Below are positions 1-11,507 of a DNA stretch of 64,000 nucleotides, in pieces. Source of the stretch: Burkholderiales bacterium (GTDB lineage Bacteria; Pseudomonadota; Gammaproteobacteria; Burkholderiales; SG8-41); contig JAIETP010000010.1 in the NCBI GenBank assembly GCA_019744975.1, positions 210,952 through 274,951 of the forward strand, given 5' to 3'. Made by a program: the position numbers and the translations under genes. Position 1 is the first letter of the stretch; the number at the start of each line of letters is the position of its first letter. A model generated the notes under the pieces. It saw nothing but the letters and a program-made list of their open reading frames with translations, searched no databases and was not told the DNA's origin.

Positions 1-450
1 GAGTCGGTGGTGACGCTCACCACACGGTCCACCGCGTCGTAGGTATAGCGCACGGCGGTGCCGGGTTCAGCCACGCGGCTGACGCGACCTGCAGCATCGT
101 AGTCAATGCTGCGGCTGCCGCCGGGGTAATTGATGGAGGTCACCCGGTTGACGTTGTCGTAGCTGTAGGTCGTGACCTGGCCTTTGCGGTCGGTAAACTG
201 GCTTAACCGCCCTGCATTGTCATATTGGTGGCTGGTTGCCCTGTTCAGCGCATCGGTGACCGCGGTGACGCGATCACCAGAATCGTACTGGTAGCTCTCA
301 ATCGCGTTGTTGCGCGGATCAATGACCGAGGCCAGGCGCTGCGCGGGGTCATAGGTCAGACGAGTCTCCTGCGCCAGCGGATCAATGGTCTTGGCGATCT
401 GATCGATGCCGTTGTATTCGGTGCACGTATCAAAACCCAGCGGGTCGGTG
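1..450 (-). pseudogene. Rhs core fragment (third Rhs module, runs off left edge)
   Basis: On the minus strand this stretch encodes YD-repeat Rhs core sequence. It is nearly identical at the DNA level to 2749-3198 in the second module and to about 5524-5973 in the complete Rhs gene. The homology stops abruptly near 450, just after the codons for DPLGFD. There is no start codon or N-terminal region, so it is a displaced core whose tip, if present, lies beyond position 1. Near-identity to both other copies points to recent duplication or gene conversion. It is probably silent until recombined into the full gene; that part is inference from known rhs orphan modules. Confidence 0.8.
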
Positions 451-706
451 CTATCGCAAACCACAGCAAGGATGCGACACGGCGGGGCTTCGGGGCGGGA
501 AACGAGCACGGGGAACTCCGTCAGGCGCGCATGCAGGCAGGTAGAGGAAGAATCATTGTAATCTGTTGTTTTATTGACTATTTTTATTTATGGTGTCTGA
601 CCTTATTTACCGTTTCAGGCAAAAGGCAAGACCTGACCCCATTGCTGCTCTGGTGTTAGTGTCGTAGGTAAACCGGTTCACAACGGGCGTATTGCCGGGA
701 AGATAA
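451..706. other. Rhs module boundary: spacer plus 48-bp Rhs scrap
   Basis: Positions about 463-640 are not Rhs but resemble about 3470-3640, the spacer before the second module. Both contain the same GCAAACCACA start, a shared ACGGCGGGGCTTCG block and an AT-rich tail ending near a GTGTCTG motif. Positions about 658-705 then match 6187-6234 inside the complete Rhs gene, coding on the minus strand for PVVNRFTYDTNT. So the third module was cut apart and a spacer now sits between two core pieces that are not adjacent in the intact gene. No gene is visible here. Confidence 0.6.
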
Positions 707-10100: not shown

Positions 10101-11507
10101 ATTCACGGCGAGCGCAATTTCCGTGTTACTGGATTGGGTCGCGTTGATGGTGACCGTAAAAGTGCTGACCGCTCCGACGTTCATGGTGAAGGGCGATGGC
10201 ACGAGCGAAACCACTGCAACAGGCGGTGCGATAACATTGACCACTGCCGACGCGCTACTGCCATTCAAACTGGCGGTAACCCCAGCTTGCCCAAAAGCAA
10301 CGGCACTAACGACGACCGTGGTACTGGTCTGTCCCGCGGGCACTACAACCTGTGCAGGCGAGCTAGCGATGCCTGGCGGGGTAACGCTGACCGGGATCAC
10401 GGTATCGGCAGTCTGAGCCGCCGAAATCGTAAGCGTAAGCCCGGTGCTCGCGCCCAAGGTAACGTTAGTCGTTACCGGCAGCAGAGACACCACGGTGGGC
10501 GGGGCTGGATTGACTGTGATCTGGCTGGCGACTGTAGAGCCATTCAGGCTGGCGCTAACTTGGCTTGTACCAGGACTAAGGCCGTTAACCGGTAGACTGA
10601 CGGTCAATTGACCGGCTGGCACGATCACGCTCGCCGGTACGCTAGCCACGCCTGGCGCGCTGCTTGCTAAACTGACGCTGGTATTATCAACGGGGGCACT
10701 GGTCAGCGTGACCGTAAGCGTTCCGTTTGCGCCTTGCGTGATTAGCAATGATGATGGCAAAAGACTCGCCACGGTCGGTAGTGCCGGCGTGACATTGATG
10801 GTCGCACTGGCGCTGCCGCCATTCAACGTTGCAGTTACGGTTGCATTGCCTTGTGCGACTCCAGTTACGGGAATGGCAACGCTCGTTTGACCTGCGTTGA
10901 AATTAACGCTTGCCGGTACAGTTGCCACACCGCTGTTAGCACTGGTCACGGCGAGATTGCCCGCACTCAACGGTGAGGGCGACAGATTGACCGTCAAATT
11001 ACCAGTGGCACCGGCGGTGATGGTCAGCGGATTAGGTGCAAGAGCGGTGGGTACCGTCTGTATCGGCGTGCCCAGAATTCGTAGCCGGAATGCCGCGCCC
11101 GGCGACCCCGCCAAACTCACCGAAATGGAGTTGCTCGCGCCACTCAATGTGACGGGCTTCTCCAGAAGCGTGACTTGGTTCCCGAACTCGGAAGGACCAG
11201 CGACTTGCACTCCGTTAAGGGTCACTGTGGCAGAGGTAACTCGATTCGCCCCAGGTACCGCAGGGTCACCATTTTCTATGCGAAGCATAAAAGGAGCCGT
11301 GGTACCACTGGGAATGCTGAAAGTATCGGTGACAGTGACAGGAGTTCCGGTAGTACGGGTATAGATCTTTGGGCCAAAGACCAACTCGGTCGGGGCAGTT
11401 TGCGCAAACGCCCAACCAGGCGCCAAGATCATCAAGGCGAGAGCACATGCCCCCAACATGCGAAAAACACGCTCAAATTTCGCCGTCGATTTCACCAAGT
11501 TATTCAT
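4158..11507 (-). CDS. Complete secreted Rhs polymorphic toxin-like protein with Ig-like N-terminal region
   Basis: 2,449 residues from ATG 11507, chosen because an AGGATAG site lies just upstream and it gives a clean Sec signal peptide (...ALALMILAPGWAFAQ, cleavage near residue 36). Next come roughly six repeats of about 88 residues, each starting near a SLLPxxL motif and ending in ALVQVTPPPP-like linkers. A Big_2-like domain, an IPT/TIG-like domain (about 870-950), a carboxypeptidase-regulatory-like fold (GVTGIKGRFVTPEGQ) and, from about residue 1345, a DUF6531-like start (GNPVNLYSGQELP) follow. YD repeats run to the Rhs core hallmark (TGLYYYRARYYDP...DPLG) near residue 2336. The last 113 residues form a distinct tip that begins with a hydrophobic stretch. 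There is no PAAR or VgrG-type N-terminus, so delivery by type VI secretion is unlikely; Sec export is indicated. The toxic activity of the tip is not recognised. Confidence 0.85.
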   Translation of the reverse strand: MNNLVKSTAKFERVFRMLGACALALMILAPGWAFAQTAPTELVFGPKIYTRTTGTPVTVTDTFSIPSGTTAPFMLRIENGDPAVPGANRVTSATVTLNGVQVAGPSEFGNQVTLLEKPVTLSGASNSISVSLAGSPGAAFRLRILGTPIQTVPTALAPNPLTITAGATGNLTVNLSPSPLSAGNLAVTSANSGVATVPASVNFNAGQTSVAIPVTGVAQGNATVTATLNGGSASATINVTPALPTVASLLPSSLLITQGANGTLTVTLTSAPVDNTSVSLASSAPGVASVPASVIVPAGQLTVSLPVNGLSPGTSQVSASLNGSTVASQITVNPAPPTVVSLLPVTTNVTLGASTGLTLTISAAQTADTVIPVSVTPPGIASSPAQVVVPAGQTSTTVVVSAVAFGQAGVTASLNGSSASAVVNVIAPPVAVVSLVPSPFTMNVGAVSTFTVTINATQSSNTEIALAVNNPGLLQVPMSVTVAQGQLSTTFTVTALATGNAVIIASANGTSQGANVHIAPQPAAIVSLLPNPLPLQQGVTGTLTVTLNVAQEAVTTVAVVSSNAGIAQAPASISIPAGQISTPIPINTLTAGDATITVSVNNTSASALVQVTPPPPAVTGITPGALTLPKGTPGTLRVAVSRAPITASAVVLSSSNPAFVSVPPTVNIPAGALFADFPVTANAQGQATISATLNGGTATAAITVTPAELTLLTLSPQTPTAYIGESISFTATGTMTDGSTQNLTTQATWSSSDSIIASIANTGVASALATGQTTISSSYTFMAAQTGQSVTISVNTALTVRAPGALVLSAPSSTLQSGQSTIVTVQSSDAPPLGGLTVSLTQSGTGTGSFPATVVIPEFESITTFTFTANTAGSVTLTATAPNRLPGALALTVASALSITSIAPTSGAPGTIVTFNGTGFDPKSASNQVSFTGNATSPVLTATATRLTVAVPQNAQTGPISVTNANGTAVSPPFTVTQGEQDFQLVASPANVTVYQGASNTAQAQIASTGTNPYTGLVRLNVQGLPAGVTAAISPAATLSAFQSGAITFSSTAAAVPGNYTVTVQATGPGNGFSINRSATISLTVAAATGVTGIKGRFVTPEGQGIAGIIVRADIGPNPQPQTVTDAAGNFVLIGLTAGAVTFRFDATPANPLYPIWPYSVPLAANTINVMPDWTINPPPADDKFTPISNAAQDQFITDSRYPGLAIKLPAGVTITGWDGVVKTRIAIEQVDISKIPVSPPPAPVGAAYQMYFGTPMGGIPSAPIPVTLPNDTDAEPGTSVPVYFFDGSPMGGSGEWKIAGQGIVDPNGKTVSMPAGTGIPRFCGVCGLVCLGKQVSAKPGKGCPRPTAGNPVNLYSGQELPSTSGLSCGGLTPIDTGMSYDPIDAFNNIGGISGSVGLGWTLDYDVVFLPFSGPQKRLLLPPNEGINFVDDGSGNYRSFDDPRFDGAVIRALNAASNEWELAFKDGRKWRFNPFTPVVTRGGPTTFLTEMIDAAGNSLRINRRSDGRITSVGSGIRNVTMTYGGNGFVSEMRDTANRVTSYSYTSTNRIATMTDADNKVTSYTYVNDSEIPPAPVCAASQPAMGERIKTIQYPGRTNPTTNFYGSARRVLRQLGYDGLETRMDYRVTGACVTHTSAPNTQCTANCPDTDSWENFQAGWRIHGGRVIATTVTEPNGTTKRYTYNAVGAMLSSTDGLGQQDVRKLDAVNRVIQRTDAIGRTWKYQYDAQGNRIQEIDPLNRVMDYAFDPKWNLTTTATRYLPGNTPVVNRFTYDTNTSRLISTIDPLNNTTTLGYTLRAELSSITVPGNRTMTLEYNDAGDLVRMADPLGNETLYQTDGAGRRIRITDPLGFDTRTEYNGIDQITKTIDPLAQETRLTYDPAQRLASVIDPRNNAIESYQYDSGDRVTAVTDALNRATSHQYDNAGRLSQFTDRKGQVTTYSYDNVNRVTSINYPGGSRSIDYDAAGRVSRVAEPGTAVRYTYDAVDRVVSVTTDSVAGQHTVGYEYDTLDRVTRRTLNGADPTDYTWDAASRLATIIYRGQTTTYTWDGANRLTNKTLPNGIKQIFTYDNADRLLSIAYQKADNTPIETITYTYDAKGQRLTKAMSGTSSRETAFTATYNAANRMAGLTLNGVTYSLSYDDNGNLAAKTDTGNASNTTTYAWDSRNRLTGISAPGINASFSYDALGRRVEKTVNGNTVNYVYDGAQAIAEVTGGTVSAAILTGLNLDEVLARYAASGNRTYLTDALNTVIAQANDTQAIENYYTYTPYGETQTLGPDGGNPIQYTARENDQTGLYYYRARYYDPVLKRFVSEDPIGIAGGLNLYGYVGGDPLSFVDPLGNRAELISIVIIAASIAIYTDAANILINLITPVQNRIDGLNKADQFAPPGAQGSADFDPKTGVPYGILEQRRSHEEVKNFKRDFFDIGKGATELISPSPAPLIKDIAKICR

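Follow-up and report, generated by a model that had tools for sequence, protein, structure and literature searches.

A predicted polymorphic Rhs toxin locus with displaced, mosaic core modules and a neighboring type II secretion-like gene cluster in a Burkholderiales bacterium

The stretch of DNA analyzed here, 64,000 nucleotides of a Burkholderiales bacterium (assembly GCA_019744975.1, contig JAIETP010000010.1, forward-strand positions 210,952 to 274,951; hereafter the window), makes up the end of contig 2 in a source genome of 3.69 Mb (44 contigs, 99% complete) and carries at its left end a complete Rhs carrier gene followed by two truncated copies of its core. The complete gene lies on the minus strand at 4158-11507, as a sequence-only reading of the window had proposed and as both the open reading frame (ORF) and the domain scans bear out. 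The ORF itself spans 4158-11564 (2468 amino acids), opening at 11564, with a start codon at 11507 before a segment of the carrier protein, P0001, that resembles a signal peptide when read by eye. Pfam and NCBIfam scans resolve the remainder into an immunoglobulin (Ig)/TIG stalk with three Big_2 stretches and a TIG domain, a YD-repeat shell with 11 RHS-repeat stretches (PF05593), and an Rhs_assc_core whose model (TIGR03696) scores 83.9 bits against a cutoff of 32.5. The core closes on a DPLGN junction, and it is past this DPLGN or DPLGL motif that the C-terminal tips diverge, the DPxG junction being that of Rhs polymorphic toxins. The carrier’s own tip (tip 1, 4161-4487, minus strand, 109 amino acids) consists of a hydrophobic segment followed by a polar part and has a single full-length homologue, located on the 2424-residue carrier P0002 (37% over 99% of a 139-residue query that includes the core end). 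Thirty nucleotides past the Rhs stop codon, and on the same strand, follows the candidate immunity gene already pointed out from the sequence (imm1, 3666-4127, 153 amino acids), which encodes one membrane segment predicted from hydropathy and has no Pfam or NCBIfam match.

Downstream of imm1 lies a displaced core (module 2, 1782-3332, minus strand) with 93.9% DNA identity to positions 4554-6107 of the full gene across 1558 alignment columns. The sequence-only reading had recognized here a displaced core with a different tip (1316-3333); core and unrelated tip both stand, but the open frame does not, as a 2-nucleotide deletion near 2378, relative to the full gene and to the third core, splits the module into ORFs 2205-3320 and 1316-2416. 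The tip-side ORF terminates in tip 2 (1319-1714, minus strand, 132 amino acids), which is unrelated to tip 1 and whose sole homologue besides itself is P0009 (44% over 99% of the query) among the proteins of ~200-640 amino acids searched, a size range that a full-length carrier with tip 2 would escape. In the genome contigs, 50 stretches matched a two-row alignment of tip 2, and none was confirmed. The end of the core just before tip 2 is much less similar, with 46 of 60 and 30 of 60 columns matching, and tip 2 therefore likely arrived together with its own core end. A second candidate immunity gene, likewise called in the earlier reading, is present as imm2 (759-1289, minus strand, 176 amino acids from the likely start ATG at 1289); a longer form of this ORF (759-1334, 191 amino acids) overlaps the tip 2 stop codon and features five hydrophobic segments. 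The G+C content is ~57-65% in the cores, ~38-44% in tip 1 and both followers, and ~51% in tip 2, so that the claim of more AT-rich tips and followers is weaker for tip 2. With its displaced 3' core, different tip, and follower, module 2 has all the parts of an orphan module.

The third core (module 3, minus strand) begins at position 450 and leaves the window, as anticipated, ending at window position -589 (position 14363 of the leftward extension), some 590 bases past the edge. The third tip and follower expected farther left are absent from that extension, and module 3 thus lacks the parts that would make it an orphan module: the place of the tip is occupied by a transposase gene (13414-14337 of the extension) with a Y1_Tnp domain, which scores 73.6 bits against the REP-associated tyrosine transposase model, below the cutoff of 80. 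The gene carries 28-nucleotide inverted REP arms (13430-14398 of the extension) and a third, REP-like arm lies at window positions 623-642, such that module 3 is bracketed; across 79 kb, the motif GGGGTCAGGTC turns up at these three sites and nowhere else. Between imm2 and the core proper, at the head of module 3, sits a 57-nucleotide core scrap (650-706, minus strand) that is 96% identical to positions 6178-6234. To the left of the transposase gene are what we take, from their sequences, to be HNH-type, MazG-like, and TctC-like proteins, with no tip among them. At another carrier locus (L048, 14591-15325), an ORF that we presume from a motif to encode an IS200/REP-type transposase stands shortly after the candidate immunity gene, resembling the left end here. 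An AT-rich repeat of ~30 nucleotides (AATCAATAAAAACAAAYAC) occurs between the modules, at 3566-3608 and at about 545-590; as a module-specific recombination site it was rejected, with 126 genome sites at up to 2 mismatches against none for a reversed control.

Although the three core copies are indeed highly similar (92-94% identical in DNA), the similarity is uneven, and what the sequence-only reading described as nearly identical cores are mosaics. A 317-nucleotide tract (5527-5843, minus strand; module 2 copy at 2752-3068) is identical in all three cores, while in the three-copy alignment a 228-nucleotide tract (4873-5100, minus strand) is shared by the full gene and module 2 and not by module 3, which differs at many sites inside it. 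The longest identical runs (317, 356, and 338 nucleotides) far exceed the medians of 92, 56, and 74 obtained by mismatch permutation (p at most 5e-5 each). The sites at which two copies agree against the third are similarly clustered, forming 32 runs where 55 are expected (p at most 5e-5): agreement of modules 2 and 3 against the full gene is the dominant type in 5526-5166, and agreement of the full gene and module 2 against module 3 in 5166-4923. Constraint is a poor explanation for the 317-nucleotide identity, since the tract has 41.5% amino acid identity to nine other carriers, no better than four other core tracts (41-60%). Mosaic cores with shared identical tracts point to past exchange between main gene and displaced modules, and the cores look as if they had exchanged sequence among all three, provided that the assembly is right.

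To place the locus among its relatives, we searched with the specific middle part of the carrier and recovered 12 loci (L046-L057) in 11 genomes, with records assigned to Rubrivivax, Hylemonella, Roseateles, Rhodocyclaceae, Hydrogenophilales, Candidatus Nitrotoga, Burkholderiaceae, Burkholderiales, Betaproteobacteria, and Proteobacteria. Nine of the loci extend beyond the core end, and two of these contain displaced cores of their own. In L053, the displaced core (90% over 1739 columns to its own carrier) is followed by its own tip and follower and then by a 321-nucleotide tipless stub, and shares with the carrier a 668-nucleotide identical run set between ends that are only ~70% alike (permutation median 51, p 2e-4); the displaced core of L054 is 85% identical to its own carrier and lies near a contig end. 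We compared 12 tips (two each from the present locus and L053, one each from eight other loci) and found nine groups with no BLASTP match between them at E 1e-3, L046, L047, L051, and L054 sharing one group. In this sample the same carrier is therefore joined to unrelated tips, rather than being fixed without tip variation, an outcome that would have told against the sequence-only reading, and the Rhs protein behaves as a polymorphic carrier. Nine of the 12 tips are followed by a same-strand ORF of at least 60 amino acids starting within 60 nucleotides of the stop codon, five of them with predicted membrane segments. The L050 tip matches Peptidase_M91, and an HNH nuclease domain forms the end of P0006, a protein with 46% identity to P0001 across 2354 columns. 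From position and family, we infer that the tips are toxins and the followers immunity proteins.

The sequence itself shows how the genes are ordered, that the tips are unrelated and the cores mosaic, that the frame of module 2 is broken, and that module 3 has no tip. The account we favor, and consider probable, is that of a predicted polymorphic-toxin locus in which the two truncated cores, the nearer one accompanied by a tip and follower of its own and the farther one tipless, are older ends of the gene displaced by incoming tips, with core recombination likely still mixing their DNA. A new tip and its follower would enter through recombination in the core, shifting the old 3' end downstream, where it would decay: by a deletion in module 2, and by loss of the tip in module 3, which now ends at the REP-type transposase gene. 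The direction would run from the newest unit, next to the carrier, to the most decayed, farthest from it. The shared cores would meanwhile go on recombining, and tip 2 might return to the full-length gene by natural crossover in the shared core, depending on the position of that crossover with respect to the deletion. The sequence-only reading had seen in the array a store of exchangeable tips moved by recombination; displaced modules, shared cores, unrelated tips, and core exchange all agree with it, but with at most one spare tip, an out-of-frame core, and a tipless module 3, ordered decay of displaced ends fits better than a maintained store. Several observations weigh against this account. 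A swapped tip is not seen directly, with a single strain at hand, and module 3, being tipless, offers nothing to exchange. Neither tip 1 nor tip 2 has a known domain, the predicted structure for the tip 2 ORF is too poor to use (mean predicted local distance difference test (pLDDT) score 39), the tips and followers of the present locus have no match anywhere in L046-L057, and three of the 12 tips (L046, L051, and L053) have no same-strand follower ORF of at least 60 amino acids starting within 60 nucleotides, an overlapping ORF existing at the L053 tip. Finally, of the nine related loci whose sequence continues beyond the core, seven yielded no displaced core, and such arrays are hence not a constant feature.

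The same observations can be read in other ways. The displaced modules could be decaying relics of past tip replacement with no present role, their identical tracts incidental products of gene conversion, an account that we rate as clearly less probable even though decay does rise with distance from the carrier, the L053 array likewise ends in a tipless stub, and no displaced core was found in most related loci. Against pure decay, tip 2 and its follower both retain open frames, and of the 81 codons that differ among the 515 compared between the full gene and module 2, 67 are changed synonymously and 14 are not, although conversion from a functional copy could do likewise. Comparably unlikely in our estimate is that module 2 serves as an immunity bank, its follower guarding against neighbors armed with tip 2 and the silent tip being of minor importance. 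Such a role would suit the intact multi-pass ORF of imm2, the purine-rich stretch preceding its ATG at 1289, the existence of one homologue besides itself (P0011, 76%), and the precedent of an orphan CdiI that is expressed while the orphan toxin is apparently not made, as described by Poole et al. (PMC3150448). It is harder to reconcile with promoter-like sites at chance level (3 found within 400-4300 against 4.2 expected) and with the presence of imm2 in only 1 of 369 genomes of the class, namely its own, so that the matching attacker is not seen.

Our preferred reading of displaced toxin ends also faces two broader challenges. The Rhs protein might not be a weapon at all but a surface adhesin or enzyme scaffold whose variable ends are recognition or adhesion domains, as its long Ig/TIG stalk, the lack of a recognized toxin domain in tips 1 and 2, the three tips without an evident follower ORF, and the conserved Gly-rich and PAP2/haloperoxidase-like neighbors described below would allow; we deem this improbable in view of the HNH and Peptidase_M91 domains that end P0006 and the L050 carrier within the same carrier family, and of the closely spaced followers, often with predicted membrane segments, behind most tips. 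Least probable of all is an assembly artefact of near-identical repeats, affecting the identical tracts or the array as a whole. A 317-nucleotide identity in three copies does exceed common short reads in a genome of 44 contigs, L053 comes from a short-read metagenome assembly as judged by its contig name, and assembly or polishing of repeats could account for part of the identical tracts, a further point against the account we favor. The contig nonetheless continues through the repeats, there is no second copy of the sequences of the tips, followers, and module ends, and independent assemblies show similar arrays.

On the other side of the carrier, upstream and on the same strand, lie two predicted exported proteins: the Gly-rich gly482 (11630-13078, minus strand) and, upstream of it, the small yd344 with a YD-repeat segment (13100-14134, minus strand). 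Homologues of both are found upstream of the carrier in all 10 related loci with enough flanking sequence, the contigs of L052 and L055 being too short. In wider samples gly482 is rare, present in 3 of 149 relatives including its own genome and in none of 20 other genomes of the same genus; in G089, it adjoins the carrier on the downstream side. L082, one of the stretches around the stronger Rhs-core matches, combines carrier, yd344, gly482, and pap2 with no secretion genes, yd344 and gly482 lying downstream of the core. The structure prediction for gly482 has a pLDDT of 67.7, and nothing in the PDB matches it at E 0.001 or better. The PAP2/vanadium-haloperoxidase-like protein, pap2 (31021-32334, plus strand), has a homologue near 9 of 10 related carriers, the L050 copy lying in an adjoining stretch (L080) and L056, on a short contig, having none.

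Between these accessory genes lies a type II secretion-like cluster (22354-31018, plus strand) with GspG, GspF, GspE, three unassigned ORFs, a GspD-type secretin with TPR and STN domains, and three further ORFs, two of which have pilin-type N-termini. GspG scores over its NCBIfam cutoff, whereas GspF, GspE, and GspD pass the Pfam cutoffs and fall under the NCBIfam type II secretion cutoffs, and we therefore regard the cluster as a variant system. Type II secretion genes are thus linked to the carrier in the present genome, at a distance of ~11 kb, and such a cluster is found within 20 kb of Rhs-core genes in at least seven other genomes: those of L047 and L050, where GspG starts ~0.5 kb and the cluster ~0.25 kb past the carrier stop codon, respectively, as well as G016, G018, G086, and G140, with mostly other Rhs carrier types, and G033, recognized by its pseudopilins. 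The secretin subfamily is also present in 8 of the 11 genomes that hold L046-L057 (E 6.8e-141 or better). Among the matches listed, it occurs in 52 of 149 relatives (E 1e-70 or better), namely, in 28 of 44 with an Rhs-core match versus 24 of 105 without, an association (p 3e-6) that takes no account of kinship, counts the query genome, relies on a threshold picked after seeing the list as well as on hand-copied lists, and has other carrier types among its Rhs-core matches. Some linked pairs may lie beyond the matches listed, and several of the genomes are incomplete. Neither TssB nor TssC was found in the source genome, 99% complete, with an E. coli control detected, in line with the earlier description of a non-type VI Rhs; three of the other 11 carrier genomes (G515, G519, and G523) have TssC, leaving 9 of 12 carrier genomes, including the present one, with no TssC match.

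Export of the carrier likely goes through Sec, and gene linkage alone points to the adjacent cluster as the best candidate for the outer-membrane step: the protein would leave via Sec and then the neighboring type II secretion-like machine, with the long Ig stalk presenting it on the surface. We tentatively extend this to a broader proposal, which we regard as possible rather than expected: that giant Sec-dependent betaproteobacterial Rhs toxins have an outer-membrane route of their own, comprising a type II secretion-like machine that is encoded in linkage with them and whose secretin bears TPRs, the dedicated exported partners gly482 and yd344, and the PAP2/haloperoxidase-like protein, and fed by an array of swappable tips, a pathway not previously tied to polymorphic Rhs toxins. 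A good part of the survey speaks against it. The secretin subfamily is absent from 3 of the 11 carrier genomes and, in the 8 that have it, lies near the carrier only in L047 and L050; of the other six, the Roseateles secretin is ~0.42 Mb away on the carrier’s contig, and five are on other contigs, where the true distance is not readable. The 24 relatives that have the secretin with no Rhs-core match count against it as well, only one of eight stretches around the stronger Rhs-core matches (L086) contains type II secretion genes, with none in L082, and G016, G018, G086, and G140 are no unbiased sample because they were mostly chosen for having core and secretin on one contig. G519, moreover, is one of the two closely linked genomes and has TssC. 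No passage through the outer membrane is known to us for the large, signal peptide-bearing Rhs proteins of Gram-negative species, and the titles and abstract openings of the open-access literature searched contain no link between Rhs toxins and a type II secretion cluster. Together with the scarcity of TssC among the carrier genomes, the repeated linkage makes this outer-membrane route directly testable in a cultured relative; Roseateles asaccharophilus DSM 25082 (L049) is one that has both the carrier and the secretin subfamily and gave no TssC match.

The right-hand part of the locus is shared with G018, a genome of the same genus, in which the secretion cluster (85-95% protein identity), part of pap2, and a 995-residue ORF at window positions 14507-17494 are conserved. 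This ORF is 75% conserved, has no Pfam match, and encodes what we take, from a motif, to be a zinc phospholipase/S1-P1-type protein. Past its orthologue in G018, an unrelated ORF replaces yd344, gly482, and the Rhs array and runs to the contig end ~1.2 kb farther on, and no gly482 was found in that genome; members of the genus thus likely differ in the Rhs segment. Contig 10 of G018 (L102) carries a tandem set of Rhs ORFs, one of 1298 amino acids and four units of ~650-680 amino acids (one of them split), each unit with a signal peptide-like start; they share ~84-99.7% identity over common DNA and differ at their ends. The set neighbors a type II secretion-like cluster, with <1 kb between its start and GspG. 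On G102 contig 2 and G127 contig 69, many RHS-like matches fall within single open frames of 14056 and 10617 amino acids, respectively. At the left end of the present locus, a 244-nucleotide segment (13158-13401 of the leftward extension) is duplicated with 98% identity at window positions 33348-33591, one copy covering the 5' part of an HNH-type gene and its upstream region.

In its layout, the array resembles the orphan modules of known rhs-CT/rhsI and contact-dependent growth inhibition (CDI) cdiA-CT/cdiI systems, for which the sections of Poole et al. 2011 (PMC3150448) and Koskiniemi et al. 2014 (PMC3967940) on which we draw describe a full-length gene followed by truncated modules with shared upstream sequence of variable core length, unrelated tips and followers, and exchange with the main gene. 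In these sources, a shared stretch of 522 bp with 95% identity is the proposed substrate of the Salmonella exchange; the present locus offers 1.55 kb with 94% identity, including identical tracts of 317 and 228 nucleotides. Those orphans accompany type VI Rhs or two-partner CdiA proteins, whereas the carrier here is a signal peptide-bearing, Ig-stalk Rhs in a genome with no TssB or TssC found, and its tip exchange is inferred; the mosaic cores suggest that DNA is exchanged on such carriers too, and the displaced-module logic of type VI Rhs and CDI may therefore also hold here. Sequential displacement has likewise been reported, to judge from a title, for Vibrio cholerae type VI loci (PMC5361080). 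The sequence-only reading had considered an array on a Sec-exported Rhs less familiar, yet two precedents exist in the portions of the literature cited here. Streptococcus suis WapA (PMC12704120) is a Sec-exported full-length Rhs with downstream truncated duplications that have no signal peptide or complete core, and its authors propose a downstream pushing of old pairs; unlike the present carrier, it is a wall-anchored protein of a Gram-positive bacterium, with no outer membrane to cross. Neisseria MafB (PMC4287609) is a Sec-exported polymorphic toxin with silent C-terminal mafB-CT cassettes and follower genes, but its carrier domain is DUF1020 rather than Rhs/YD, and a Pfam scan finds no DUF1020 here. 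The array by itself is therefore an ordinary addition to a known theme. Its neighborhood is less expected: signal peptides and RHS repeats are listed for the type II/Sec pathway of polymorphic toxins in Zhang et al. 2012 (PMC3482391), and a 2023 review, in the part we draw on, separates large signal peptide-bearing Rhs proteins from a small type VI class (PMC10433427). Table 1 of Zhang et al. gives no signature neighborhood genes for the type II/Sec pathway, whereas the carrier here has conserved accessory genes and a type II secretion-like cluster among its linked neighbors.

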